NCBI RefSeq assembly: GCF_041381155.1
Contig: NC_091143.1
Coordinates: 23,649,695-23,713,694 of the forward strand
DNA from: Argopecten irradians
Taxonomy: Eukaryota > Mollusca > Bivalvia > Pectinida > Pectinidae
DNA length: 64,000 nt
Direction of reading: 5' to 3'
Positions within the stretch are counted from its first letter, which is position 1. Every line of letters begins with the position of its first letter. Below are positions 417 through 61,043 of the stretch, piece after piece. Both the position numbers and the translations under genes were made by a program. The notes under the pieces are model-generated. The model was not told the DNA's origin. It saw nothing but the letters and a program-made list of their open reading frames with translations, and did no database searches.

Positions 417-3400
417 CTGAACCTGTGGTGTTGTCTCCCGTGACGAAGACTCGGTCACGGACTGTCAGTGGACTTTGGGTCCTTTCCCACAACACATACT
501 CTGGATCCCTGGCCGGCGGAGCGAAGCCACATACGTTCACCTCAAAGTCACATGACAGTGGGAGCAGAACAGCGGGGGGCTGGGTGGTGGTGGGGACTGT
601 CGTAGTTGTTGTTAGTGTAACTAAAAACCGAACGATGATAAAAAGAGTGTTTTGTAACCACAATTGCAGACTAGGAATTACTTTACAATTATCTGGTTTG
701 ATAATTGTTTTTATCAACTGTATTGAAGTGATTTATATACAATAAAAAGTAGTGGGAAACAATAGGTAGTGTAAGAACAACGAATAGGAGTATAATGAAA
801 TCGAACATTATAACATGATGTAAAGGTCTAATTCCGTCTTTGCATATCTAAATGTTATCTGCCCTCGAGGGTATATATTTATATCGTGACGTCATTTGAT
901 CGCAAACGTAACGTCACAATCTATACCTTCCTGCATGGGAGATAACTCTGTAATATGAAAAGTGGAATAGTACATGTATACTACTTACCATTTGTGAGAA
1001 CAGTGTCGTCGATTGCCAGGTCACTTAGATAGTGGTACTTGGTTGTTGCCTCGAACAGTAGCTATAACAATAATAATAGGATATAATATATTACATGTAC
1101 TAGTTATATTGTGTCATAGGGCAAAACTTTTCCTAATCATGTATTGCGTTTTTCATTAAGCAACAAGTAATAGAGAAACCTTATTCCACAGATTTTTAGA
1201 AATATATTTTGCTGAGGACTCAACATGGGTTAAGAACAAGACTATTTTAAATATTCCTTTCAATGAAATATCGATACTAACATCTTTTCCGTGAATGTCT
1301 TAATTAATATCATATATCCTTTTTGTGAAACATTTCGAAATTGCTTTTTAATCATCCTTTTCATAGTCCTAAAAATGTATTCTCTTGCATGATGATTAAT
1401 ATTATGGGAAAAAATGTATTCAAATATAATAGGAACAATTAGCAGTCATATAATAAATGAACCACTTACTGTGTATGACCCAGGAGAAAGTTCAACAACC
1501 GCCTGCAACCAGTCTGGTCCCTGACGGCCTTTACGTGACCATACAATGTTTGAGTTGCCATTGGAAAAGTTCTGATGCAGACTGAGGGAGCCGACCCCCA
1601 AGCCATTCATTATATACCAGAATGAGAACTGGAGGTGTACATCGGAGTCAATGACGTCACTAGCTAGCACAGCCTTCCAGGACGAGTTTCTAGCTTCGAT
1701 TCCCCGGATGTAGGCGTATTTGCCATCTAGTGTGGATACAAATAATAAATGATAATTTCGTAAAAAAATAAACAATAAAAAAAAAAACAAGCAGAATTAG
1801 TCTATCTTTTTTTACATTTTGGGGCTGAACAATTATACCTGACATAGAAAAATAATAGGTACTTTTCTAGAAAAATCTCAGGATCACAGACAAACACGTA
1901 CCTCCATTGGTATGATCGGTTTTAGGAGCAGACAATCCCCGCACTTCGTTAGTATCACCAATGTGCCAGTCGAAATCACTATGGCTACCGATGTGCCATG
2001 TACAAGAACTGCTCTCAAACGTGCAGTTAATGGCGGAATCATTTCCTGTCAGGTAAAAACAGATTAATCACAAATAATAACGTATATTAAATTCCATTAA
2101 AAACGCGCCATTGTAGTAATCTTCATGATTTATCAGAACTAAAGTTTTTCATTGAATACCTTGCAGTAAGGGTATTCTATGTCTACTGATTTTTTTATTA
2201 TTTGTTTTTAAATCATGGTTCGAAAATTTCCATTGAATTAACAAAAACCATTTACTGCAAAACATATTCACTTTGAAGTAATTAAGAACAATAAAAAGAA
2301 CTACCTAAGAATTCCCGGGAAATTGTTGCCGTTGTCGTTTCGTCTAGGTATGTTGCTGCTGTCGGCTGCTCCCAATATAGATGGGTACCATTTGGTCTAT
2401 TGGCTGACGTTACCGTGTAAACACTGACGTCATCTAATCCTGTGACGTGAGAACTGTCCTCTTTCTCCATTTTAAAAATTACCTACAGTGATGAGAGTCA
2501 CCATATATCATGGTTGGTCATTTATCTCATTACTAGCATACACATTGCAAGAGACCACGAAACGGTTATCCATAATAACACGACCGAAAAGGTGCAAGAC
2601 ATTACATTTTGTGAATTATAGAAATAATAAATGATGCGTTTTTGTTTTTCCTTAGTTCGAGTTGAAATAGATTATAGCAGTTAAACGCATGCATACTTGA
2701 GATGTTATCGGATATTTTGTTTGTTTTAAGTTTGCCATTTCTGAATAAAGTTATTGTTTTGTTTTAATGATTACCATAGGCCAGCATTGCGCTTAATGAT
2801 ACTATTAAATACACGTTAAAAATGATGTGCAACATATCTACCTTAAAAGAAATGTCCATCTTTAGCATTAATGCCACTTTCTTCCATTTCTTGTCATTTG
2901 TATAACCTCGCCAGGCTGTATCCCGGTGACCAGTGGAATACTCCACAACGACTTGCAGACCTGACGCGGAGTTCCCGCGTTTGTCAAACCAGAACTCCAC
3001 ACACACTGCGCCCATCGGCAGTTCTGGAAGCGCCAACTCGAACGAAGTACCGGTGATTGAACGTGAAGAAGTCACTTTTGGCCGAGCATAGTACCCTAAA
3101 CAAGAAAATCTGGTTACAGTAAATTTGGTTAAAGATATACTAAATGTGTTGATATCCTGCTATGTTTTGATAGGATTTGTTTCCAGTATAAAAATGAGAA
3201 GGCAAAGTTTAAATGGATTAAAGATAAAAAGTATAGTAAATACATTGACATTAGCCGCAAAAAGTAGTTGTTTTGTTATAAAGATACAATTTATGCCCCT
3301 CCACACATTTCAAGAACAACTCAACAACTAAATGAAATTGAAATGGCAACCCCAAAAAGGATGACATTTAAATTAATTGTTAATGATCCACCATGTTGAT

Positions 3401-14344: not shown

Positions 14345-15600
14345 ATATTCTACTGTCATCAAAATCAGCTAAATAACCTAAGCCTGTGGCACCATTTTCT
14401 ACCATACAAACCAGCAAAATATCCCAAGGTTGACTTGGGACACAATATTTTGGCATACAAAACTGCAAAATATTCCAATGTAAGTTTGGAAAAATATCTT
14501 CGGCCATACAAAATTACAATAATTACTATAATAAGGTTGGCCTGGAACAACATCTTCGGCCATAAAAAACTACAGCATATTCCAAGGGTGACTTAGAACA
14601 CCATCTTCGGCCATAAAAACAGTAAAGTATCGAAAAGATTGGCTTCGGACACAATATTCTGGCATACAAAACAGCAAAATATTCCAATGTTGGCTTGGGA
14701 CAGCATCTTCTGCCATACAAAATTACAACATATCCTAAGGTTGGCCTGGGACAACATCTTCGGCCATACAAAACTACAGCATATCCCAAGGAAGACTTAA
14801 AACACCATTTTCTGCCATAAAAAACAGCAAAGTATCGAAAAGATTGGCCTCAGGCGACCTATTCTGCCAAAATAAAACCCTAAATATTTCAAGGTTGGAT
14901 TGGGACAGCATTTTCTGTAAAATGCCAAGGTTGGCTTGGGACAACATCTAATATCATATAAAAGAGCAAAAATATCCCAAGGTGACCTGGGCTAACATCT
15001 TCTGCTTAGGACGCAATTTAATATCATACACAAATATTCCAATGTTGGCTTGGGACTACATCTTCTGTCATATGAAACAGCAACATATCTATAGGCCTAC
15101 CAAGGTTTGAATGGGTCAGCATCTAAAGCCATAACAAAGAACAGAAAAATATCCCAAGGATGGCTGGGAGAGCATCTAATGTCATTTAAAATATCAATAT
15201 ATTTCATAGTTACCTTAGGACATCATCTTATGTCATATAAAAGAGCAAAACATGCCACTATTAGCTTAAGACAGCATATATCCTGTCAAAAAACAGCAGC
15301 ATATTCCAAGGTCTGTATTGGGAAATCCATTAAATGCCATAAAAAGAAGCTAAATATCCTTATTTTGACTTGGGAAACCATCTAATGTCATAAAAGACAG
15401 CAAAATGTCCCAAAGATTGGGTTGGGATAGCATACTCCGCCATAAAAATATCCCAAGGTTGACTTGGGACATCATTTTCTGACATAAAACTAGACAAAAA
15501 TATCGCAATACAATATACATTATGCAGTAAAAACAATAGTCTGCCTTCGGACATCTTCTACCACATAAATCAGCAAAATATCATAAGGCGACAGGAAATA
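14345..15600. repeat. 51-bp minisatellite with a 204-bp higher-order period
   Basis: About 1.25 kb of imperfect tandem units near 51 bp. The pattern per unit is CAAAATATCCCAAGG, TTGGCTTGGGACA, CATCTTCTGCCATACAAAA. In the first half some unit variants recur every fourth unit: the GTATCGAAAAGATTGGC variant appears near 14,627 and again near 14,832, giving a period of about 204 bp. The right half is more decayed. Because 51 is a multiple of three, stop-free stretches appear on both strands (a 17-residue period such as LGYFAVLYGRRCCPKPT). They have no other sign of being genes. Confidence 0.85.
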
Positions 15601-19321: not shown

Positions 19322-20375
19322 ATTCTTTTCATCACCTTAACCCATTGCTATAGACTCTGCCAAGAATTATTCCCCAAATGACTGTGCAATTTGTATATAT
19401 TAGCTTACTTACTATAGGTCCAATTTCAGGACTCTAGACCTTTCAGAACTTGACAAGAAGTTGTTTGAAGATTTCAGGTTTTGTAGCCCCTGTGACCATG
19501 AATAGGGGGCCCCCCGACACCAAAAAATTATTATTATTTTTTTTTTACTCAAGTATATGATTTTACATAGACTTGAGAAAAAATCTGTCTGAGAAAGTTT
19601 TATGGTGCCGGGCCCAGATCAATGTTAATCATAATTGACAAACTTAGTAGACATTGAGTCATAATACGTCACGTGACATTTTTACCTGTAGTGTATTTTT
19701 AGCTCGAGCAAGAGCTGTGCGCGGCAGGCGGAAAGCGACCATACCTAAAAGTTCTTCCTATATATTCTGAAAGGTCCAATGTCAATGATAAAAACTTTGA
19801 GCATCTCTTATTCGAAAGGCGCTGGTCAAATGAGCTTAATAAGTGGAAAAGTTGATGTATCACTGGTAATTTCGTTTACAACTGTAATATTCTAGCAGTC
19901 ACGCCTTGAGTACACCATATGGTAAAACTACACAACCAATGCAGGTTCTTTGGCATTTGGATGACTGGTACAACTTGTACTCTCTGACGTTCCACCAAAG
20001 CGTTGAGAAACAGAAGAAAATCGCCATCCAGATTGAAGTGCCGGTCGTTTGCAATATATAATGACATGTAGAACGATAATGATGTCATCTTGGGATAGGT
20101 ATATTCGGTCTTGTTGTGCTGGTGAAATTCAGATGGAGTTAAAGGTGGTATTGAAGATGATGACGACCGACTTGCATAACATAGGTAACAAATCCACAGC
20201 TGTATCATCTCATCATGTAATAGCAATCGTGCTGGTGTGACATAGAAGTTTATAATGTTTATAAGAATGAGCACTGGTTCAAAATATTGAAGTATCCTGC
20301 AACACCTCATGATTCATTGTAATGATTTGTTTCCAAATAAATAAGTACAAAGTCGCCAACTTAATTTCTTCTCAG

Positions 20376-20505
20376 ATTTATTTCCCCCTTCAATTCCATA
20401 CAAATATCATACATCTATACAGTTGTCATTCCCGGACAACATGCCGGCCAGCTATCCCAGAGATACACAGAGACACGGAAAACAAGCCACCAGCTACTAC
20501 AGCAG
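20376..20505 (+). other. Exon-like module repeated in the array (unassigned)
   Basis: The stretch follows TTAATTTCTTCTCAG, a good acceptor, and ends AGCAG|GTACA, a possible donor. Inside, ATG at 20,441 opens MPASYPRDTQRHGKQATS... for 21 codons plus two bases; without splicing it stops five codons later. Copies sit at 25,164-25,293 and 31,232-31,361, the last with one Gly-to-Arg change, and a degraded-looking version near 38,590-38,720. I recognise no family, and preservation may reflect only recent duplication. Confidence 0.25.
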
Positions 20506-20695
20506 GTACACAACAGACTGATCACAGTACAGACAGCACTAACAGATCACAGGGGATTAGCATGCGCATCTGACCTACAGTCATTACACATCCATAGTAT
20601 AATGATATATGGGTCATAGATTGGTGTCAAGCCCCTGTGTTACATTTGGTAAGTACTGAGTTTTGCACTGTGTTTTAACTGTCTATTTGATCCCC

Positions 20696-21366: not shown

Positions 21367-22164
21367 CAAGAGGCCCAGAGGGCCTGTATCGCTCACCTGG
21401 TTTGTAATGCCTAGGAATGTTCTGAATATAAGTTCATTGTTTCTTTTCCGAATTCCCCTATTAGGGTCCACTCTTTCTGCTCCAGGGGGTCAGAGCCAAA
21501 ATTTATACAATTTTCTGTTCTCCTTCCCCCAAGGATGTTTCTGGCCAAATTTGGTTACAATCCATGCAGAACTCTAGGACAAGTAGCCATTTATAGGATT
21601 TACATCTATTTCCCCTATTGGGCCCCACCCCTCTTGCCCCGGGGGATCAGAGCCAAAATTTATACAAGTTCTGTTCCCCTTCCCCCAAGGATGTTTGTGG
21701 CAAAATTTGGTTACAATCCATGCAGAACTTAAGGACAGGTAGCGATTTATAGGATTTACATCAATTTCCCCTATTGGGCCCCGCCCCTTCTGCACCCGGG
21801 CGGTCAGAGCCAAACTTTATACAAGTTCTGTTCCCCTTCCCCCAAGGATGTTTGTGGCCAAATTTGGTTACAATCCATGCAGAACTCTAGGACAAGTAGC
21901 GATTTATAGGATTTACCTTTATTTTCCCTATTGGGCCCCGCCCCTCCTGCCCCCGGGGGGTCAGAGCCAAAATTTATACAAGTTCTGTTCCCCTTCCCCC
22001 AAGAATGTTTGTGGCCAAATTTGGTTACAATCCATGCAGAACTCTATGACTAGTAGCAATTTAAAGGAAATGTTGACGGACGGACGGACGGACGGACGGA
22101 CGGACAGACGATGGACGCCGCGCTATGACATAAGCTCACCGGCCCTTCGGGCCAGGTGAGCTAA
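21367..22164 (+). mobile_element. Pearl-type (Helentron-like non-autonomous) element
   Basis: The left end CAAGAGGCCCAGAGGGCCTG is followed by GCTCACCTGG, whose complement CCAGGTGAGC closes the right end. The body has four tandem cores of about 156 bp, each with GGATGTTTSTGGC, AAATTTGGTTACAATCCATG and CAGAGCCAAAATTTATAC. Then comes an (ACGG)n run at about 22,077-22,107, then the hairpin GGCCCTTCGGGCC followed by AGGTGAGCTAA. Tandem core, ACGG microsatellite and hairpin 3' end are the described layout of bivalve pearl elements, which relate to Helentrons; the terminal CTAA would fit a CTRR end. It is absent from array copies 2 and 3, where only an A run occupies the site. ORFs here are core-repeat shadows. 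Confidence 0.8.
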
Positions 22165-24103: not shown

Positions 24104-27100
24104 TCAAATGACTAAATTACCTGTTCTGTTCTGTTGTCTCCAGTTTTACTATGGGATAGTCCAGGGGTGAAGAGATCGTAAGTGATCGGAACCCAGGGCT
24201 GAAGAGATCGTAAGTGATCGGAACCCCTGGAATATCGAGGAAGATTCTTTTCATCACCTTAACCCATTGCTATAGACTCTGCCAAGAATTATTCCCCAAA
24301 TGACTGTGCAATTTGTATATATTAGCTTACTTACTATAGGTCCAATTTCAGGACTCTAGACCTTTCAGAATTTGACAATAGTGAAATTGAAGGCAGCTCA
24401 GCTGAAAATATTTGACCAATCACAGACCAGCAAAGATTTCCTTTGAAGACTACAGAGAGAGCGACTCCCAACTTCAAAGCCACATAGTCAACCACAGTGT
24501 ACCGTTATACGGCTCTTTTGATGTACATCAAATGACTAAATTACCTGTTCTGTTCTGTTGCCTCCAGTTTTACGATGAGATAGTCCAGGGGTGTAGAGAT
24601 CGTAAGTGATCGGAACCCCTGGAGTATCGAGGATGCTATGAGATAGTCCAGGGGTGTAGAGATCGTAAGTGATCGGAAGCCCTGGAATATCGAGGATGGT
24701 ATAACTTGTACTCTCTGACGTTCCACCAAAGCGTTGATAAACAGAGGAAAATTGTCGCAAAAGTATAATTGCACCACTTGAATAGATACAAATCGTCATC
24801 AAGTTTGAAGTGCCGGTCGTTTGCAATATTGTACGTGTAGCTCTAACGACATGTAGAACGATATAGTGATGTCATCTTGGGATAGGTATATTCGGTCTTG
24901 TTGTGCTGGTGAAATTCAAGATGGAGTTAAAGGTGGTATTGAAGATGATGACGACCAACTTGTATAATATAGGTAACAAATCCACAGCTGTATCATCTCA
25001 TCATGTAATAGCAATCGTGCTGGTGTGACATAGAAGTTTATAATGTTTATAAGAATGAGCACTGGTTCAAAATATTGAAGTATCCTGCAACACCTCATGA
25101 TTCATTGTAATGATTTGTTTCCAAATAAATAAGTACAAAGTCGCCAACTTAATTTCTTCTCAGATTTATTTCCCCCTTCAATTCCATACAAATATCATAC
25201 ATCTATACAGTTGTCATTCCCGGACAACATGCCGGCCAGCTATCCCAGAGATACACAGAGACACGGAAAACAAGCCACCAGCTACTACAGCAGGTACACA
25301 ACAGACTGATCACAGTACAGACAGCACTAACAGATCACAGGGGATTAGGATGCACATCTGACCTACAGTCATTACACATCCATAGTATAATGATATATGG
25401 GTCATAGATTGGTGTTAAGCCCCTGTGCTACATTTGGTAAGTACTGAGTTTAGCACTGTGTTTTAACTGTCTATTTGATCCCCCAATCTGATTAAAATCA
25501 GCTGTTTGATACTCCGCTATTTTCGTGGAGCAAAACATCAGCTGTTTGATACTCCGCTAACTTCGTGCTCCACGAAGTTAGCGAAGTATCAAACAGCTGA
25601 TTTTAATCAGATTGCTTGATCCCTTACATGTTCTTTGAGATCTACCAAAAACAAAACTTCATCATGAAAGATAGATTATACTAAATTAAGACAATTAGTT
25701 TATATCTCTGTCAACTGGACCTCAATAATACAATTCAAGTCTTGTTAGAAGTTTGGAAATATCTAGTATTCTTCTGCAAAAAAGCAACAACTCAAAGCTG
25801 TTTTCAACTAAATATAATAATTTCACAATAAAACACATATTATATCTTAATAGTAATTAATATTTAGATTAAAGTAATTTCTAAATTCCATGAATTACAC
25901 TTTAAATCAATTCTTTTGATATTTGATTTTGAAAATAATATACTGTACATGCATCATGAATTATGCATAGAAGCAGGCAAATCACTAGACACAAAATTGC
26001 TGTAAATTGAAGCCATTTTCATTGATGACCCATCAAGTGCCCTTCCCATGTTTTACACAGACCCCAATTTCACTTACATCAAATAAAATGTTGACAGAAA
26101 CAATGAAAACTGTATTGGTTTCTTTATTTGAATTCCTTTGGAATAAAACAATAAAAAAAAAAGATTCATGGCATACTTCGTGTAATATCTTTTCTGAAAG
26201 GTTACCCGGAAGTCCAAATTTGGTCCTAATAAACACCCTCTCATTTTTCTTAAGCATTTTAGGTACTTTTTGGGGTCAAATACAGTCAATTAGATTGAAT
26301 TTTTCATATTTAAAAAAAATGTATTAAGTGATGAAAACCTGTGCTTACAGTACTATCAGAAATGTATTACTTTCTTACCATAATTTATCACGCAAAACAT
26401 AGAAAACATGCATCAAGTTAAGTATAAACAGCGTGATAAGGTGTTACTGGAAAACTTTAAATAACCTTAGATAGAATATTAGACAATGTGGAAGGAACCA
26501 TCATGAGGGAAATAAGATATAAGGAATAGTGTCATTGTACTTCAGTTTTCCAGAGTTGTCTCACCTTGCAGGTAGGTATCAATTGTTACGATGTGTTTGT
26601 GAGCATAACGTCATATTTCCAGAGAAATTTTCTCTCACAAACCAATGATGTCACAATGTTTACCTACAAGGGCAGATAACTCTGTTATAAATGTTTTTAT
26701 TCGAAACTCCCAAAACTCCAGAAATACAGTGGTGAGTTTTAAGGGGTTCCGAAGATTTTTCTTTCTATAAACTACAGTGATGAGTCCCAATGGGCTCTGA
26801 AGAAGGCCATTTTACTAATGACCATCTCACAATAAGTATACTTATCAATTTAAAGCCTGGCCTTTAATCCGACAAACAATAAAACATGCTATGCGAGGAA
26901 TTTAACAGATCAAAAATAATGTACATGAAAACATAGTGTAGATATGCTCTAAAATGAAAAATAGCTACATATAAATATTGTGTATACAGATGATTAACAT
27001 TAATGTTTTAATAAAAATGATTTGGCTGATGAAGAAAAAAATATAACTGTTGTACAGACTTTTCTTTTTTGATCTAAAAAAACCTGAACTTAGGAGAGTG

Positions 27101-30104: not shown

Positions 30105-33029
30105 ACCCATTGCTATAGACTCTGCCAAGAATTATTCCCCAAATGACTGTGCAATTTGTATATATTAGCTTACTTACTATAGGTCAAATTTCAGGACTCT
30201 AGACCTTTCAGAACTTGACAAGAAGTTGTTTGAAGATTTCACAAGAAATCATTGGAAGATTTCAGGTTTTGTAGCCCCTGTGACCATGAATAGGGGGCCC
30301 CGACACCAAAAAATTATTATTATTATTTGTTTTTTTTTTACTCAAGTATATGATTTTACATAGACTTGAGAAAAAATCTGTCTGAGAAAGTTTTATGGTG
30401 CCAGGCCCAGATCAATGTTAATCATAATTGACAAACTTAGTAGACATTGAGTCATAATACGTCACGTGACATTTTCACCTGTAGTGTATTTTTAGCTCGA
30501 GCAAGAGCTGTGCGCGGCAGGCGGAAAGCGACCATACCTAAAAGTTCTTCCTATATACATGTATTCTGAAAGGTCCAATGTCAATGATAAAAACTTTGAG
30601 CATCTCTTATTCGAAAGGCGCTGGTCAAATGAGCTTAATAAGTGGAAAAGTTGATGTGTCACTGGTAATTTCGTTTACTACTAGCAAGGACGTATATCAC
30701 TTATAAATCCTTGCTTAGTAATATTCTAGCAGTCACGCCTTGAGTACACCATATGATAAAACTACACAACCAATGCAGGTTCAAGTGGTATTTGGATGAC
30801 TGGTACAACTTGTACTCTCTGACGTTCCACCAAAGCGTTGAGAAACAGAAGAAAATCGTAATCCAGATTGAAGTGCGGTCGTTTGCAATATTGTACAGGT
30901 AGCTCTAATTATATAATGACATGTAGAGCGATAGTGATGTCATCTTGGGATAGGTATATTCGGTCTTGTTGTGCTGGTGAAATTCAAGATGGAGTTAAAG
31001 GTGGTATTGAAGATGATGACGACCGACTTGCATAACATAGGTAACAAATCCACAGCTGTATCATCTCATCATGTAATAGCAATCGTGCTGGTGTGACATA
31101 GAAGTTTATAATGTTTATAAGAATGAGCACTGGTTCACAATATTGAAGTATCCTGCAACACCTCATGATTCATTGTAATGATTTGTTTCCACATAAATAA
31201 GTACAAAGTCGCCAACTTAATTTCTTCTCAGATTTATTTCCCCCTTCAATTCCATACAAATATCATACATCTATACAGTTGTCATTTCCGGACAACATGC
31301 CGGCCAGCTATCCCAGAGATACACAGAGACACAGAAAACAAGCCACCAGCTACTACAGCAGGTACACAACAGACTGATCACAGTACAGACAGCACTAACA
31401 GATCACAGGGGATTAGGATGCACATCTGACCTACAGTCATTACACATCCATAGTATAATGATATATGGGTCATAGATTGGTGTAAAGCCCCTGTGCTACA
31501 TTTGGTAAGTACTGAGTTTAGCACTGTGTTTTAACTGTCTATTTGATCCCCCAACCTGATTAAAATCAGCTGTTTGATACTCCGCTATTTTCGTGGATCA
31601 AAACATCAGCTGTTTGATACTCCGCTAACTTCGTGCTCCACGAAGTTAGCGAAGTATCAAACAGCTGATTTTAATCAGATTGCTTGATCCCTTACATGTT
31701 CTTTGAGATCTACCAAAAACAAATCTTCATCATGAAAGATAGATTATACTAAATAAAGACAATTAGTTTATATCTCTGTCAACTGGACCTAAATAATACA
31801 ATTCAAGTCTTATTAGAAGTTTGGATATATCTTGTATTCTTCTGCAAAAAAGCAACAACTCAAAGCTGTTTTCAACTAAATATAATAATTTCACAATAAA
31901 ACTCATATTATATCTTAATAGTATTTAATATTTAGATTAAAGTAATTTCTAAATTCCATGAATTACACTTTTAAATCAATTCTTTTGATATTTGATTTTG
32001 AAAATAATATACTGTACACGCATCATGAATTATGCATAGAAGCAGGCAAATCACTAGACACAAAATTGCTGTAAATTGAAGCCATTTTCATTGATGACCC
32101 ATCAAGTGCCCTTCCCATGTTTTACACAGACCCCAATTTCACTTACATCAAATAAAATGTTGACAGAAACAATGAAAACTGTATTGGTTTCTTTATTTGA
32201 ATTCCTTTGGAATAAAACAATAAAAAAAAAAAGATTCATGGCATTACTTCGTGTAATATCTTTTCTGAAAGGTTACCGGAAGTCCAAATTTGGTCCTAAT
32301 AAAACCCATCTCATTTTTCTTAAGCATTTTAGGTACTTTTTGGGGTCAAATACAGTCAATTAGATTGATTTTTTTCATATTTAAAAAAAATGTATTAAGA
32401 GATGAAAACCTGTGCTTACAGTACTATCAGAAATGTATTACTTTCTTACCATAATTTATCACGCAAAACATAGAAAACATGCATCAAGTTAAGTATAAAC
32501 AGCGTGATAAGGTGTTACTGGAAAACTTTAAATAACCTTAGATAGAATATTAGACAATGTGGAAGGAACCATCATGAGGGAAATAAGATATAAGGAATAG
32601 TGTCATTGTACTTAAGTTTTCCAGAGTTGTCTCACCTTGCAGGTAGGTATCAATTGTTACGATGTGTTTGTGAGCATAACGTCATATTTCCAGAGAAATT
32701 TTCTCTCACAAACCAATGATGTCACAATGTTTACCTACAAGGGCAGATAACTCTGTTATAAATGTTTTTATTCGAAACTCCCAAAACTCCAGAAATACAG
32801 TGGTGAGTTTTAAGGGGTTCCGAAGATTTTTCTTTCTATAAACTACAGTGATGAGTCCCAATGGGCTCTGAAGAAGGCCATTTTACTAATGACCCATCTC
32901 ACAATAAGTATACTTATCAATTTAAAGCCTGGCCTTTAATCCGACAAACAATAAAACATGCTATGCGAGGAATTTAACAGATCAAAAATAATGTACATGA
33001 AAACATAGTGTAGATATGCTCTAAAATGA

Positions 33030-37800: not shown

Positions 37801-40800
37801 TGGAGTGTATTTTTTGCTCCGACGCCAAGGAAGCTGTGCGACGGGGCAGGCGGGAGTAAGCGACCATACCTAAAAGTTCTTCCTATATACATTGGCCCTG
37901 ACAGGTAGGGCGTTAGGAAATTGTACTGCGTTTTGCCCCTTTTGCATGATCGTTATAATGGCGATTCAGACGTTCAGGGGTCTTTGTAGAGATCGTAAGG
38001 TGATCAGATGCCCTGGATATCGAGGATGGTTGTATTAACTTGTACTCTCTTTCCCTACTCTATGACGTTCCACCAAAGCGATTTGATAAACAGAGGAAAA
38101 TTGAAGTTCAACCAAAGCGTTGATAACTGATGGAAAATGTCGCATAAGTATTATAGATCCATTGATAGATACAAATCGTCTTCAAGGTTTAGTGCCGGTC
38201 GTTTGCAATTATTGTTCATTGTAGCTCCTATATAACGACATAGTAGAACGAATTATTGTGATTGTCATCTTGGGGATAGGTATATTCGGGTCTTGTGCTG
38301 GAGTGAAATTCAAGATGGAGTTAAAGGTCGTTATTGAAGATGTTGACGAACAACGTATTTATATTTTGGGTATACAAAATCACAGCTGTTATCATCGCAT
38401 CTTGTTATTGCAATCGTGCTGGTGTTCTTGTGGACTTTAGATAGTTTTTAATGTTTATAAGAGATGTGCTACCTGGTTCACAATATTCGAGTTTCAATTG
38501 CAATATATTCCCTCATTGTTAATATCTGTAATGATTTGTTTCAAAATAAATAAGTTCAAAGTCGCCAACTTAATTTCTTCTCAGATTTATTTCCCCCTTC
38601 AATTCCATACATATTTTCTTGCCATCTATACAGTTGTTCATTCCGGACAACATGCCGGACAGCTATCCCAGAGATACCACAGAGGAACGGATAATCAAGC
38701 CACAGCTACTTACAGAAGGTACACAAACAGAACTGAATTCAGTTACAGACGCAACTAACTGATAACTGGGGATTAGGTTGCAAATCTGAACTAACATGTC
38801 ATTTACACATCCATAAGTTACTATGTATTATTGTTATTTGCGGGTCTTAGTTTGGGGTTATGCCCCTGTTTGGTATTACATTTGGTATAAGTACTGAGTT
38901 TTGCACTGTGTTTTAAAACTGTCTATTTTGATCCCCAATCTGCATAAAATTCAGCTGTTTTGTTCCTCCGATATTTTCGTGGAGCAAAAACATCAGCTGT
39001 TGATTACTACGCTAAACTTTCGTGCTCCACGAATGTTAGCACGATACGAGTATCAAAACAGGCTGATTTTTAATTCAGATTGCTTGATACATTACAAGGT
39101 CTTTGAGGATCTACCAAAAACATAACTTCATCTATGAATGATATATTATACTACAATTATGACAATTAGTTTTATATATCTGTCAACTGGACCTCAATTT
39201 TACAATTCCATGTATTGTTTGAAGTTTGGCATGTATCTTGTATTTCTTCTGAAAAAAAAGCAACAAACTCAATGCTGTTTTCTAACTTAATATAATTAAT
39301 TTCACATAATAAAACACTTCATTATTTCTATAATAGTAATTTATATTTAGATTTAAGAGTAATTTCTAAATTCCAATGAATTAACACTTTAAATCTCTTT
39401 CTTTTGACTATTTGATTTGTGATAATAATATACTGTTCATGACATATATGAAATTATTGCATAGAGATGAAGGCAAATCACTTGACACAAAAATTGTTAT
39501 TTTACTGTTATATTGGAAGCCTTTTTCATTGTATGACCATCAAGTGCCACTTCCCATGTTACCACAGACACCAATTTCCTTATAAATAATTAAAAATGTT
39601 GACAGAAACAAATGAAATCTGTAATGGTTCATCATTTATTTGTATTCCTTTGGAATAAACTATATAAACAAGTGATCCCAGAGGGATTTGGCGCCCACAA
39701 AGATATGGAACTATGTTGACAAAGGAGGAAGAGGGATCTTTTCCCTGCTTTTCAACTTTTTCAAACCCACACTACTATAAATTATGAGACCAGATCGCTA
39801 TAGTAACTGTTCTAAGAAATTAGTGGTAACTAACTTCAACAATGAAATCTAAGATGGCGGCGGTTGGCCTCTTGTTTACCCGATCAGTCCAAAAAGCATA
39901 TTGCATCAGTTCCTAAAAGGTATAATGCACAACTAGGGTACAAGAGGAACCTATCAATGAATTTGAGAAAGTCCCTACGTACTTTCTGAGAAATAGCTAT
40001 AACAAAATTAAACTATCAAAATCCAAGATGGCTCGTCGGTCAGGCAATCTTGTTCATTGATCGGTCCCAAAATGCCAATCATGCTCAACTAGGGGTCTAG
40101 GGGAACATGTATATGAAATTTGAGAAAGATCCCTTCAGCATTTTTTGAGATATAGACGGTTTCAATATTCAACTATCAAATTCAGATGGCCGACAGGCGG
40201 CTCTATCATCTCCCAAAATGCAATAGCACAACTAGTGCCTAAGGTCCTATATTGAAATTTGAGAAAGTTTAAACTTTTAGAATGATCAGCTGGTAACAAA
40301 ATATTTAAGTATCCTAAACATCATGATTCATTGTAGGCCATCTTGTTTCCACAAAAATAAGTACAAAGTCGCCAACTTAATTTCTAGGGAAATCAGATTT
40401 ATTTGAGAACCCCTTCAGTACTTCCATACAAATAGTGGTCAAACTTTACTATCAAAATCAGATTGTCATTCCCGTTTTCACAAAACTTGGTAGGCCAGCT
40501 ATCCCAGAGATACACAGGCCCACACGGAAAACAAGCCATCAGCTACTACAGCAGGTCACAAAGACTTTTAGCTCAGTAACAAACTTTGCCTAATGAAGGT
40601 CAAGGGGATTATTTGAACATCTTGACCTACCTCATCACATCCATAGTTGTGACCGATCAGGTCAAAATGCAATATACCCCTGGGCCTAGGTAACCTGTAT
40701 ATGAAATTTGAGAAAGTCCCCTTCAGCATTTTTTGTGGAAATAGCGGTTTCAATATTTATTTATGAAATCCAAGATGGCGACAGGGCGGCCTCTGTTCAT

Positions 40801-45691: not shown

Positions 45692-48600
45692 TTAGGATCC
45701 CTCATCCTGAGAATTTAAACGTGGCATTTTGGTAGAAGGAGAATTTGTAGATTCTGATGAATCTAGACTGGCTTTACTGGAATCTCTTTTCTTGCTGACA
45801 TTCTGAAATGAAAAAAAGACATACCAATAATACAATACAGTTGTCAGTATTCCTTATGATGTGTGCTCATGTAAACAGAATTTAGAGATCCTTTATCAAA
45901 TTTTTAGATGAAACCTTACAAGCCAAAGTGTGAATTTATCTTTAAAGACTAAAACTAATTCTTTTAAAGGTAGGTTTCGCCAAACCAAGTAAATATTTAT
46001 TTTGTAAAATCCAATAAACGGAAGAAAAGGTGAAAAAACATATTAAAAATACCTCATTATTTAATTTCTTAATGCGTATGAGATTGAACAAATGTGTCTT
46101 GAATACAAAATTGAAGGAAATCCTTGATTTATTACGATCGTCAGGCTGACAGGGTTGTATGCAAATGAAGCTGGATTGTGTTGTCGAAGTTTCGCGCATG
46201 CCCATTTTTATGCACTAATAGTAAACAAAATGGCTGAACGAAAGTGTGTGAGAAAAAACTATGTATCAGAATCGGCATCAAGGAGTAGGAATTTAGAATG
46301 GAATCGGTAGCATCCTATGATATCTCTTGGGAATGAAACTCAGAGATGTCATGTAGCAATAGAAGAAACAGAAGCCACTTCAGACTCGCCCAGATTCTGT
46401 TGGGTCGTGTTGCACGTTGTGAGTTAAACACATATGCCAGCGCACATACAGCGGCAGACTAACTACATATATGTTTGGTGTACTAAGCTAGCGAGTTTAT
46501 GTCAGTAACTTGAAGTATTATAGGTTATATGACATGTAGGGTATGAACAATCCATCGTACTTTGATTTGTTGTTGTTGTGTTTTAACTAAACATGCTGTG
46601 GCAAGACTGTCACTTCTATCTGACATTTTGTTGCACCCTTCCGTTTGTTGATGCGACCTTGTTTTGGAAAAAAAAATGTCATGTTCTAAGTAAAGCTTGA
46701 CTTCGCTCTATTTTTAGAGGAGTATTTTCCTGGTCAAGCTAGGCAACTGACCACCCATATTATTCGCTGTATGCATAGAAAATGATCTGAAGATTATATC
46801 TATGAACAGGATAAATTTCAATTTCGTAAACTTTATTTCATTGGGCGAAACCTACCTTTAATGTAATATTACCGTATTTTTGCGCGTATAGTGCGCACTT
46901 TTTTTGATAAATTATCAAGTGAAAAGTTGGGGTGCGCATTATACGCAAGTACAGGCCCCCGAGTCATGATCATCGACCGGCAGGTCCAAGCTAAAGTGTG
47001 CAGTAGCCTAACATTTTGTACATGTTGAGAGTTATGATTAAATACTTGGATCTTTAAGTCAATATTCAATGCATATATTCAATATAAAATGAAAAGCTCA
47101 CTTGAAATTTATATCTTTAATTTCTTGAAACTCCGTTTGGGAGCACGTGTTCATGACCGGACACATGTTACGATCGTGAATCTTCAGTAAGGTATATCTC
47201 CAAATCTAAATGGCTTAATAAATGTAGTCTGGAGCTTGAAACGATGTATAAGTATGTAATTGATTCGTCACGTTAAACTCATTACCTTATAAATATATTT
47301 CGCCAGCATGTGAAAACTTTTGAACTTGCAAATGTTTACGGAAGTGAGTGTTATGGCTTCATGCAGAGTCAGCAAATTAAATACGAAATTAAAACCTTCT
47401 TACATTAAAACTGACCAATCGGTACTATAAATGATGGTATGTCTGTCAAATACACTCTTATTACCATCTTTTGAAATGGTTCTATAAAATCTCATCTTGA
47501 TTTCAATACTGATCGAAATAATTGAGAATACGGAAGTGTGCAGTCAGTACTCAAATATGGCGGCCAGCTGTGGTTGATTAGCCTAGCTCGGTTGGCTTTC
47601 CAGCTAATATCTTGGACATAATTAAATCTAAATGCCCATCAGATATACAATAGACTTGATTGATACCACTTGGAATTACACAAGGTATGATTAATTATTT
47701 TATTGTAAAAACATCGTGGTTGAGACCTCATTATAGAGTCGCCGGCAATTCACAAGCTAACTAGGCCTGTCGCTATTGCTGTGTAAACAAAGTGTCCATC
47801 ATCGTGTCAAACTCCTCTCGACAGTTAATTTTAATGAACAGAAGGTTGTTTTAGGCACTGATAAACAATAGGAAGAGTTTTATTTTGTTCTTGAAGTTCT
47901 TGAAGAGTGTTTGGAGCCTATGCAAAACGTTTTGAATGAAGATGCAAAAATAAGATTTTTTTGTAAAAAAAATTTTTTTTCAAAATAAAACTCAAAAACG
48001 TACCTGCGCACTATACGCGGGTGCGCACTATACGCGCAAAAATACGGTATACATTAATATAGGGATCAACCAACTAAATAAAAAAAAGACCTTCGAAATG
48101 GCCCCTGTGTATACAAGATTGAGCCCAGGATAGAATTTTAACCCGGCCACTGATTGGCTGGCTAATTATGAATTTCAAAAGTAAAAATGTTTTCTGACAG
48201 GTAATTATTCCTAGATAACCATGATATCAATTTGGAAATTCATATTGAGATTTAGGTTCAAAATATCAATTTTGATAATGAATAGGTAAAAACATTAGAA
48301 TTTCAGGATTTTTTAGTGCAAAATGCGCCTGATTTCAATAAAGCTACCCTGGTTGGAGTTTGAGCAGAAGGACCCAAACTTTTTTTTCTATCTAGTGTTA
48401 TATGAGAACCTAGACTTTAATTATAGAACACAATAGCTAACTAATATTCCTTTGTTTTAATAATACAGTACAAAACTTTAACCAAGTTTAACACTGTGGT
48501 CTATGTAAAATTCTTTAGTTGGTTGCTCTCTATATAAATCCCTCCATTTAAACATTTCACAGGTAAATTAAATAAGTCTCTGGGATTCATGATCTTTGAG

Positions 48601-51600
48601 AAGTTGTTTAAAGGTAAAAGTTGATGGCCGTACATGTACAGATGGACGACAGGCACTGCATTATGCCCTTCAGGCAGGTAATATAAGCCCAAAATGTTCT
48701 GAAGTTGAGTCAAAATACCCCAATCTTTCGCCTGTTCTCACCTACCTTTTTATCCCACTGTTGGTGGAGATACCGTAACAGTATATTGGTCTTTTCTGTT
48801 GTTATCACTGAAAATAGACCAGTATTTTCTGTAAATATTTATCAAATCTCAAACAATGGGAATAATTCATATACCACATGATAACGTTTGTGTGGGACTA
48901 GTATCTCCAGTGGTGATGGAAAGTAACTTTTTGTAATTTCTCGCTGAAATGACGTTAGCACACGATATCATCATTTGATGTCATTCCATCAATCGCAACA
49001 ATACGTAGTCCCACAAAAACGTTATCATGTATCACATGGTACTTGAATTAGTCCCATTCAAAATGTTACCATACCAACAGAATGTGAAAGCAAACAATGA
49101 AAACTTGTTAACATGAAGTCAACAATACCCTTATAGATTGACCCCAATTTGATTAAAATACATGTGTTCACTATATACATTATGTATAGTGAAAGATCTG
49201 TATCTGTATCAGATTGATATGACCCCATATCAAAATCAGAATAGAAAGGAATGAGACAGGAAAGGACGAGGCAGGATGTACATGGTTATGGTGAGCCATA
49301 ACTATAGAAGTGTAAATCAATGCAGCTTGATGTTCGAATGACACTTTAGTTTAGGTGACAGAGCGGACAAGAAAGTGACAAAATGTAGACCTATGATCTT
49401 ATAATTATATAACCCTGATGAGAAAGAAGAAGTTATAAGTAGTAGTAGGATTATCGTTTACAGTTACAGATGTATGGTTGTAGGTTTACTCACCTTGTTC
49501 TGATGGGAAATCTTTGGTGGATATATATACACCAGGTTTTCTCACCTAGATAATATCAAAATTTAAGTGTAAATTCACTTAAACCTTTAGAATTAAATAT
49601 TAAATAAATTTATAACCCCCCCCCCCCCCTTATATATTTATATTCAAGAGCAGAGTACAAAAAATTTGAACTATGTAAGACTTAACTTATAATTCTTTGA
49701 TATTCTTATGATTTAACTTGTACAATTCAAATATATAATACTCCTGAATTCGCCGTAATTAGCACCCAGGCCGCTTAATATATTGTAACAAAGGGGGGCG
49801 CTTATGATGAACCAAAATGAAAGTTGTGGGCGAAAAATGTCAGCCATATTTTAGATCTTCCTCTTCTCATGGTATAATCTGTTACAGTAAACATACATAT
49901 GCATTTTATCGTTTAAGACACATTATTATTTCGTGATTCACATGTAAAAGATTCGCAAGTTCATGTAATATGGGATACAATGCTGATGTTAGAGGCATCA
50001 TATGTTGTAAAACATTGTTAAATCTATGGAATTGGGGTTTTCAAACAACTTCAACTTTCCTCATGAAAAGGGGAGGGGCACTTATTTATTTAATTACTTA
50101 ATACGACAAATACAATATATCAAAATTTGGAATGAATCTGCAGCATGAATCTGATCACATATCTAATTATTATGTAAATTAATAAAATCCCATTTGGAAT
50201 GTACATGTGGTGTGATGAATCTAGTTTCACTGACACAAAAAATTATGTACTTACCCCCACTTTGCAACTTGAATCTGTGTGGAATTTGGTAAAATTACTT
50301 TCATTGTGTGATGGTAAGCCTTTGAGAAAATCCGCCTGAAACATAATATATATTTTTTCATTCTCATTTAATAAAATATTCAATAAACATCTGAAAACCA
50401 TATCTAAGCATACAGAACAACTTATCTAAGGTTCATGTCCCTTTAAATGTATATGTGTCATTTAATTATGTGCATGTATACCTAATTAACTTTATGTTAT
50501 ATATTTTAGCCATATCTTTAAATCTTTCAATTCCTTGATGATGTTACAGTACACATGTATAACAGTCCTGGATCAGGTTGATTGCCAGCAGTCGATCATA
50601 CTCAATTGGTAGAGCATCCTGTCAAAGTTTGGAGGATCCTGGGTATATTGCCATGCATTTTCCCACTTCTACGTTTAACATATGTAGCAGAATCAAGTGG
50701 AAAAATGAAAAGTGGTCAGAGGTTGACGTCCAATTCATCTTCATTCTTCATATATACACACTTTAACTTTTCCTGTATGTGTATCCTAGCTTTGTTAATC
50801 AATACTAGTGGGGTCATGCACATGCACCTACTATTTGCTTTATACAATTTTGGTTTGTTTTGCTTAAATAAACAGCTAACATCAGGTGTCAGTACCGCTG
50901 GTAACAGCCCCATATGGGATTTTAACCCAGAGGTGGAGGGCTTGAGTTAATATATCGGGATATATCTAATTATCATACATTCCGCCACTGTAAAAGTAAA
51001 AGTGGCCAAAATTAAGTAAACATGCTTTATACGAGGTTTGGTGTATCATGATCACAATACCAAATTTAGAAGAAGTAAAAGGTTCACAACAACGCCACAG
51101 GTCTCAAACCTATAGGACCTTTCTAAAATCTAGACAGATCTAGATTCTGTTAATATTTTTTAACCAAATGTGCTACACATACTGCAGGCAACTACAGACA
51201 CTTTAAGACTGCAACCTAATCCTGTTAGTACAGTTAACGTGACGCTACCCAAATTGGTACGCTACCCAAATTGGTACACTTTGATATATATGAGGCAGAA
51301 TTTTCAGTTTACACTCTAAACTGACAATAACTGTCCTGAACAAAAATTAAGGTGATTAACAGTAACTGTGACAATTTTTATATGTCATTTTCTTTCCTGT
51401 TGCTTATTATCTCTAGTTAAAAATGAAAATAATGCAATTGTTAAAAAAATCTGGGGAACGACGTCGTGCGACAACCCTAAATACACCATATATTTTGAAA
51501 CACAGAAAACAAGTGCTGAATGGAACTTTTTTGACACATACATGACTTTAATCAATTAAAAATTGTTTGAACTTTCCTTATATGAATTCAAACATTTTTA

Positions 51601-52044
51601 TCATGTCTAGATATTTATTAATCAAATCAAATTTAGGAGGTGTACCATTTTGGGTACTGAAACATGCTAAATCATGTTGAAAAAAGCAAATCAGTGAAAA
51701 AACCAAACATACATGTACCTTGTTGGTATCTGCACTGTACAGACAGTGTACATAGTGGAATTGAAGCTTATTTTGTTACAGTTTACGCAAAAATGATTCA
51801 TTGCGAGAGTCTGGTGGGGAAAAAATGAGAAGTCTGGTGGGGAAAAAATGAGAATGCCAGATGGATATCAACTGGAAAGTGTTTTGTGGTTTTACATTTA
51901 TGAATTGGTTATCGCGTATAAAACTTAAAAACATTATTTTCTTATTTCATAAAGAATGTAATTATCTGTGTGTTATCATTCATAAATAGAAGATAATCGT
52001 CTAACATGTCAAGAATTATTTTAGACTCAACTGTCACTTACCAT
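45692..52044 (-). CDS. DDA1: DET1- and DDB1-associated protein 1 (CRL4 ubiquitin ligase component)
   Basis: Exons on the minus strand: 52044-52042 (ATG only), 50335-50255, 49545-49494, 48807-48746, 45802-45692 (TAA). Lengths 3+81+52+62+111 give 309 nt and 102 residues, the usual DDA1 length. All junctions are GT..AG and the phases agree. The product opens [16 protein letters not shown], continues [13 protein letters not shown], then [18 protein letters not shown], and ends in a Ser/Lys-rich tail (...[11 protein letters not shown]), matching the family along its length. DDA1 binds DDB1 and, with DET1, forms part of CUL4-based ubiquitin ligases that direct proteins to degradation. Start choice: this ATG has a strong context (A at -3, G at +4) and lies exactly against the donor GTAAGT. 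An earlier ATG at 52060-52058 is out of frame. Introns hold transposon-like elements. It is divergent from COPS2. Confidence 0.93.
45964..46861. mobile_element. TTAA-flanked non-autonomous transposon in the last DDA1 intron
   Basis: The left end TTAAAGGTAGGTTTCGCC and right end GGCGAAACCTACCTTTAA are perfect inverted repeats of 18 bp, including TTAA at each border. The body is about 0.9 kb. The one ORF of 87 codons shows no transposase signature. The TTAA target suggests piggyBac-type mobilisation. Confidence 0.8.
46872..48047. mobile_element. TA-flanked transposon with CCGTATTTTTGCGCG ends in a DDA1 intron
   Basis: The left end CCGTATTTTTGCGCGTATAG continues TGCGCAC; the right end GTGCGCACTATACGCGCAAA continues AATACGG. 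These are perfect inverted repeats of about 27 bp with TA on each side, and further GTGCGC...ATACGC motifs lie just inside both ends. It is about 1.2 kb without a credible ORF. A TA duplication and such ends suit the Tc1/mariner-pogo group, an inference from ends alone. It abuts the TTAA element by about 10 bp. Confidence 0.85.
48858..49060. mobile_element. Foldback MITE with about 48-bp inverted ends
   Basis: Left arm: GGGAATAATTCATATACCAC, then ATGATAACGTTTGTGTGGGACTA. Right arm: TAGTCCCACAAAAACGTTATCATG, then CATGGTACTTGAATTAGTCCC. The centre carries GAAATGACGTTAGCAC. Located in DDA1 intron 3, about 50 bp upstream of exon 4 in transcription order. Confidence 0.7.
49145..49226. mobile_element. 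Short relative of the 'CAATCTGATTAAAAT' foldback family
   Basis: The left edge CAATTTGATTAAAATACAT and right edge TGTATCAGATTG resemble the family termini, and CACTATATACATTATGTATAGTG forms a small central hairpin. Only about 80 bp, so a deletion derivative or chance likeness. Confidence 0.35.
49616..49632. repeat. Poly-C tract
   Basis: An uninterrupted run of C of about 14 bases in DDA1 intron 2. Length in such a run is uncertain. Confidence 0.8.
50578..50660 (+). mobile_element. Degraded tRNA-like (SINE-type) sequence
   Basis: CTCAATTGGTAGAGCATCCTG resembles a tRNA D-arm and A box, and GGAGGATCCTGGGTATATTGCC stands where a B box would be, but without the GGTTCGA core. No full cloverleaf can be drawn, so this looks like an old tRNA-derived SINE in DDA1 intron 1. 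Confidence 0.4.
51240..51656. mobile_element. Element with 'GTACCCAAAWTGGTACACY' inverted ends
   Basis: The left end holds CTACCCAAATTGGTAC twice in tandem followed by ACTTTG; the right end GAGGTGTACCATTTTGGGTAC is its near complement. About 0.4 kb, in DDA1 intron 1, no credible coding content. Confidence 0.5.
51806..51853. repeat. Perfect 23-bp direct duplication
   Basis: AGTCTGGTGGGGAAAAAATG followed by AGA occurs twice head to tail. It is a recent replication-slippage event in DDA1 intron 1. Confidence 0.75.
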
Positions 52045-52321
52045 CTTTTCTGTCCGCCATTAAAATATGCACATAAAATTAAAAACTGTTTTCGGGCAGA
52101 AATGTCCGGAAAACTGTTAGGAAAAAATATAAAAACTACTTAGATATTCAGACAAATCATTGGCGTTATTTTTTTTCATGGGGTTTTATTTTAACTTAAC
52201 ATTACATTTTAACTTTGTTTTCTTCAATATAAATTTTATTTTGCATTGAAAATGATATTCCGGAATTATCCTCACGGTCTGAAAATATTATTGTGAACGT
52301 TTATGTCCCCAAAAATCCAAC
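52045..52321. promoter_or_regulatory. Bidirectional promoter between DDA1 and COPS2
   Basis: The 277 bp between the two start codons must hold both 5' UTRs and promoters. Two CCGGAA sites (52,106-52,111 and 52,260-52,265) fit ETS/GABP binding, and ATTGG at 52,159-52,163 is an inverted CCAAT box. All three are common in divergent housekeeping promoters. I see no TATA box placed for a single start. Site function is inferred from motifs only. Confidence 0.7.

Positions 52322-61043
<8,722 letters not shown>

Follow-up and report, generated by a model that had tools for sequence, protein, structure and literature searches.

The window studied here, a stretch of 64,000 nt in all, corresponds to positions 23649695–23713694 of contig C10 in the 845.8-Mb genome of Argopecten irradians; this contig comprises 43,336,331 bases, or 5.1% of the genome searched. 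According to our coding models, the window carries DDA1 on the minus strand and COPS2 on the plus strand, adjacent and head to head, with transcription running apart. The ATG of DDA1 lies at 52044–52042 (minus strand) and that of COPS2 at 52322–52324 (plus strand), leaving a gap of 277 bp (52045–52321), a distance measured from ATG to ATG, whereas the criterion for a bidirectional pair (less than 1 kb) concerns start sites. The original prediction had named both genes, called them complete, and put their starts 277 bp apart on opposite strands; the identities are borne out by Pfam and solved-structure matches, the completeness holds for coding parts of five (DDA1) and 13 (COPS2) exons, and orientation and interval agree exactly.

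Gene models and copy number

Only GT-AG introns were allowed in the models by construction. For DDA1 this left 16 in-frame splice combinations, among which forms of 100 and 102 aa were chosen because they can be aligned with the solved human DDA1. On the minus strand, its coding exons extend from 52044 (ATG) to 45692 (stop). Exon 1 (52042–52044) is the ATG alone, followed by GTAAGT, in keeping with the MADF start of the solved human protein; exon 2 occupies 50255–50335, with an alternative donor giving 50261–50335, and the database scallop DDA1 (P0001) fits the longer form. The splice model places exon 3 at 49494–49545, exon 4 at 48746–48807, and exon 5 with the stop codon at 45692–45802. The 100-aa form matches the Pfam family DDA1 (PF10172) over the whole profile (1–66 of 66) with 98.2 bits against a curated cut-off of 24 (3.1e-28), and the best solved-structure match is 6pai_E (4.1e-35). 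The 102-aa form equals P0001 from residue ADF onward. P0001 itself begins MFQADF, from an ATG directly upstream of exon 2, and its extra N-terminal residues correspond to the last part of intron 1. We read this start as an annotation artefact; a second DDA1 promoter is possible. The database DDA1 proteins of scallop, oyster, and chiton (P0001, P0010, and P0017) all read in from upstream (MFQADF, LQADF, and ...FQADF), and an ATG-only first exon would account for the odd starts in oyster and chiton.

COPS2 extends over 52322–61043 on the plus strand and encodes 442 aa. Its 13 coding exons in the splice model are 52322–52369, 54233–54346, 54843–54923, 55473–55598, 56094–56261, 56684–56788, 57211–57280, 58304–58403, 58733–58864, 59352–59449, 59782–59864, 60209–60267, and 60899–61043, the last including the stop codon. 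Compared with human CSN2, 380 of 441 aligned residues are identical. The best solved-structure match, 6r6h_B, covers residues 3–442 (7e-252), the best chain of proteasome RPN6 reaches 5.7e-26, and the PCI domain scores 80.3 bits, so the protein is a full-length CSN2 match distinct from RPN6. The Pecten maximus COPS2 (P0121) carries MSKKSN ahead of MSDE; in A. irradians the ATG at 52303, 19 nt before the main ATG, is out of frame. When viral and prokaryote collections were scanned with P0121, 12 and 26 pattern-matching stretches were returned, respectively, none encoding a relative.

Both genes are single-copy in whole-genome protein searches: DDA1 gave four exon matches (E up to 1) and COPS2 gave 12 (E up to 0.001), all at the window locus.

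The 277-bp interval

The interval between the two ATGs (52045–52321), a putative bidirectional promoter, is AT-rich and has no second copy in the genome: 283 bp across the gap, searched against the whole genome with a method that skips very common words, matched only itself. COPS2 intron 1 contains a high-copy interspersed repeat (52706 to at least 53000) that lies outside the unique 277 bp, starting ∼380 bp past the COPS2 ATG, and that recurs at 39 other genome places with 92–98% identity among 40 scored of 3063 candidates. A 12-mer common to the gap (52050) and this intron (52859) was considered as a second promoter element and was dropped because the intron copy sits in the high-copy repeat.

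The two CCGGAA sites and one CCAAT box on which the original prediction had drawn are present. CCGGAA occurs on the plus strand at 52106–52111, lacking the GT of CCGGAAGT, and again at 52260 within the palindrome TTCCGGAA (52258–52265), which holds the core on both strands; the CCAAT pentamer is on the minus strand (52159–52163, ATTGG on the plus strand). The CCGGAA cores are ETS-like, and AATGGCGGACAG on the minus strand (52050–52061), which includes an out-of-frame upstream ATG at 52060, holds a YY1-like core. CCGGAA/TTCCGG occurs 13 times in the 64-kb window, three of them inside the 277 bp; when 10,000 sequences were simulated with a dinucleotide Markov model fitted to the window, at least two matches per 277 bp arose at a frequency of 0.0031 and at least three at 0.0002, in a test that was made post hoc and counts the palindrome twice. 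The full CCGGAAGT, the GABPA/ETS consensus of bidirectional promoters, is absent, the sites reading CCGGAAAA and CCGGAATT. Because neither is the full consensus, we give the motifs little weight, and CCAAT, with a window density of 0.58 per 277 bp, is uninformative. CCGGAA and CCAAT together are weak evidence for a common promoter. Relative to the window, the CpG count of the interval (7; 69th percentile) is ordinary, and its observed/expected ratio (1.25; 93rd percentile) is high. Out-of-frame ATGs lie just upstream of both genes, at 52303 for COPS2 and 52060 for DDA1, and therefore either transcription starts very near the main ATGs or short upstream frames are present in the mRNAs.

Linkage and adjacency in other animals

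For comparison across species, the host-sequence lengths and locus tags printed beside protein matches were compared by eye, using the 120 matches listed of 412 for DDA1, 120 of 3986 for COPS2, and 120 of 3526 for an amphioxus COPS2 query. Fifteen species besides A. irradians had both genes and a length among these matches and were counted; species with a single gene were excluded. Among the matches listed, DDA1 and COPS2 lie on a contig or scaffold of identical length in 14 of the 15, namely all 13 spiralians and one sea urchin (Diadema setosum). By group, the spiralians are the bivalves Mytilus galloprovincialis, Mercenaria mercenaria, Solemya velum, and Sinanodonta woodiana, the gastropods Patella caerulea, Lottia gigantea, and Littorina saxatilis, the chiton Liolophura sinensis, the annelids Capitella teleta, Owenia fusiformis, and Paralvinella palmiformis, and the nemerteans Lineus longissimus and Tubulanus polymorphus. 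In the tick Ixodes scapularis, the two host sequences differ in length. Where several contigs stood behind a match, the longest is the one shown (DDA1/COPS2 contigs: Mytilus 4/2, Diadema 3/3, Ixodes 29/1), and a further partial Mytilus COPS2 is on a contig of 131,543 bp.

Since most of the shared sequences are whole chromosomes, these lengths speak to linkage rather than adjacency, and conserved chromosome-scale linkage by itself could explain most of them. Closer placement can be read from locus tags, which are numbered for both genes in seven of the 15 species. They are consecutive in Patella caerulea (SNE40_005060/005061) and Littorina saxatilis (V1264_001756/001755), two apart in the freshwater mussel Sinanodonta woodiana (ACJMK2_043253/043251), ten apart in Paralvinella palmiformis (58g18068/58g18078), and far apart in Solemya (018484/017511), Lottia (203011/181363), and Capitella (190994/151084). 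The Lottia and Capitella numbers are presumably model numbers that do not follow map order, and in Capitella teleta both genes are on one scaffold of 538,631 bp, i.e., near each other. The Solemya numbers count against adjacency in that species, unless numbering there departs from the map. The head-to-head orientation was read in A. irradians; adjacency elsewhere is judged from the tags and the Capitella scaffold.

The original prediction, which gave the right identities, completeness, orientation, and spacing, had also held that the pairing would be lineage-specific, which the same-length host sequences in 14 of 15 other species among the matches listed do not support. Linkage extends to other molluscs and to annelids; adjacency is supported by the tags of Patella, Littorina, and Sinanodonta, and the distant tag numbers of Solemya, Lottia, and Capitella would speak against it. 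As judged from database sequences, the two genes appear linked in distant relatives. The linkage is old, the tight pairing may be old too, and its occurrence beyond scallop is supported, not proven.

One alternative is that chromosome-scale linkage alone is conserved and that the close head-to-head placement originated recently in scallops or on several occasions. For the majority of the 14 species, equal host-sequence length is all that is known, the Solemya tags are far apart (the Lottia and Capitella numbers were also weighed in this direction), and C10 also bears GALK2-like, TrmE_N, and TNFAIP8 genes and may therefore be a conserved linkage group. Set against the consecutive tags in two gastropods, the tags two apart in Sinanodonta, and the 539-kb Capitella scaffold, we regard this alternative as rather unlikely. 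Less probable still is that the genes are chance neighbors without shared regulation: the post hoc nature of the motif evidence would suit such an origin, but the small tag differences seen in gastropods and in a bivalve would not, nor would the short scaffold of one annelid.

Function, age, and the vertebrate arrangement

DDA1 is a core subunit of CUL4-DDB1 ligases, and CSN2, the product of COPS2, serves as scaffold in the COP9 signalosome, the complex that strips NEDD8 from these same ligases. Dda1 was reportedly found through a COP9 interaction network (Olma 2009). The functional tie that the original prediction implied has been published: loss of DDA1 increased the association of COP9 with CRL4-CSA, by a mechanism that the authors present as a suggestion (PMC11286758), and a cancer study describes DDA1 as raising CSN2 via NF-kappaB (PMC4991419). 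On these data, the partners act on one ligase cycle.

The explanation that we favor, and consider somewhat probable, is that DDA1 and COPS2 form a divergent pair that is old and has its promoter region in common. The object would probably be of an ordinary kind, a divergent pair whose promoter is likely shared, although the combination of genes is unusually meaningful. Under this explanation, the genes would be neighbors in annelids and in the majority of molluscs, and a single nucleosome-depleted stretch within or beside the 277 bp would serve two back-to-back core promoters. Breaking that stretch would damage one or both of the constitutive genes, and the pair would stay together because of that damage. 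A further and weaker step would be selection also for matched amounts of DDA1 and CSN2. In favor of an old pair are the 277-bp spacing, the complete coding parts, the single copies, and a gap that is unique despite a repeat ∼380 bp into the COPS2 side. Also in its favor are the shared host sequences in 14 of 15 species, the Patella, Littorina, and Sinanodonta tags, the Capitella scaffold, the DDA1-COP9 link, and a survey in which related function was commoner in strongly conserved than in poorly conserved divergent metazoan pairs (PMC2871058). Against it are the far-apart tags in three of seven species, the Ixodes lengths, the ordinary CpG count, and the P0001 start. To these may be added two published statements: that neither fishes nor non-vertebrate animals show an enrichment of close divergent pairs (PMC2871058) and that most human divergent pairs may postdate the deuterostome-protostome split (PMC2670823).

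There is a slightly less than even chance, in our estimate, that the pair is kept simply because two constitutive genes share a compact promoter that is hard to break and low in expression noise, with the ubiquitin-ligase theme a coincidence. This is compatible with an old divergent pair and contradicts only the inference of matched amounts. Human bidirectional pairs are often co-expressed and rarely related in function, with noise reduction proposed as the benefit (PMC5572396), members of human divergent pairs tend toward different processes (PMC3815023), and of the 924 human divergent pairs that are spaced by under 1 kb and also found in another species, GO counts only 8.5% as functionally related (PMC2871058). 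The action of DDA1 and COPS2 on the same ligase cycle (PMC11286758) and the enrichment of related function among strongly conserved metazoan pairs noted above point the other way. A literature search outside subscription papers and supplementary tables returned no report of a DDA1-COPS2 gene pair, and the words "cops," "csn," and "signalosome" are absent from the available main text of PMC2871058, its gene-pair tables aside.

A close parallel to the old divergent pair proposed here is HSPD1-HSPE1, which has been given as a conserved divergent pair with a presumed bidirectional promoter (PMC2871058) and which shares the opposite strands, the long-kept linkage, and partners that act together. 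In contrast to the subunits of one chaperonin, DDA1 and CSN2 are members of separate complexes acting on each other; moreover, their head-to-head order is shown in scallop only, adjacency is supported in a few other molluscs, and shared transcription is putative. Human bidirectional pairs seldom unite one pathway, and here a CUL4 ligase subunit is joined with the scaffold protein of the ligase-inactivating complex. If the pair is kept in molluscs, and perhaps annelids, it would offer a clean natural case of whether a shared promoter is selected for protein balance or for low noise only.

In human, COPS2 is at 15q21 and adjoins GALK2, an arrangement that resembles the scallop one in setting COPS2 beside a close divergent neighbor. 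The scallop partner is instead DDA1, and the scallop GALK2-like gene, although it shares the contig, is separated from COPS2 by ∼20.7 Mb. We think it unlikely, more so than recent adjacency on an old linkage, that a bilaterian-old head-to-head pair, whose promoter set the ratio of the CUL4 core to its COP9 off-switch, came apart in vertebrates through reciprocal loss following two genome duplications (DDA1 at 19p13.11, COPS2 at 15q21) rather than by translocation. Published work places human DDA1 at 19p13.11 (PMC4991419) and duplicates across both regions, namely TNFAIP8L1 at 19p13.3 and TNFAIP8L3 at 15q21.2 (PMC5489176), ONECUT1 at 15q21.3 and ONECUT3 at 19p13.3, and CERS3 at 15q26.3 and CERS4 at 19p13.3 (PMC2211742). 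PBX4, at 19p13.11, is listed there with sisters on 1q, 6p, and 9q and none on 15q (PMC2211742). Reciprocal loss is weakened because the three 15q-linked families sit at 19p13.3, not 19p13.11, and because PBX4 is without a 15q sister.

Scallop chromosomes were compared for six gene families, chosen from their human positions. TrmE_N (GTPBP3) and TNFAIP8 had matches on C10 only. The galactokinase family gave eight matches (E up to 10) on C5, C10, C12, and C3; one on C10 at 3.04 Mb is GALK2-like, another C10 galactokinase is at 9.29 Mb, and a GALK1-like gene is on C5, both names being assigned from motifs. The DTW family is spread over C10, C4, and C1, and searches of the scallop genome with dUTPase and ribosomal L34 gave no match and were uninformative. 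These data are compatible with reciprocal loss following genome duplication and do not demonstrate it; the pair does give a concrete prediction of how vertebrates lost the linkage.

Elsewhere in the window, which has 35 open frames of at least 85 aa, 10 such frames were scanned with Pfam, and MAM domains, in two of the 10, were the only ones found. These frames are on the minus strand at 1446–1796 (9.9e-10, above the cut-off) and 2764–3159 (2.3e-5, below it). Four plus-strand open frames (20313–20573, 25101–25361, 31169–31429, and 38441–38758) share nearly the same stretch, INKYKVANLISSQIYFPLQFHT, and represent a family of repeats that has been duplicated inside the window. Two tandem arrays are also present, one at 21453–22068 with a 157-bp period (3.9 copies, 90% matches) and one at 14390–14917 with nested periods of 51, 102, and 209 bp.
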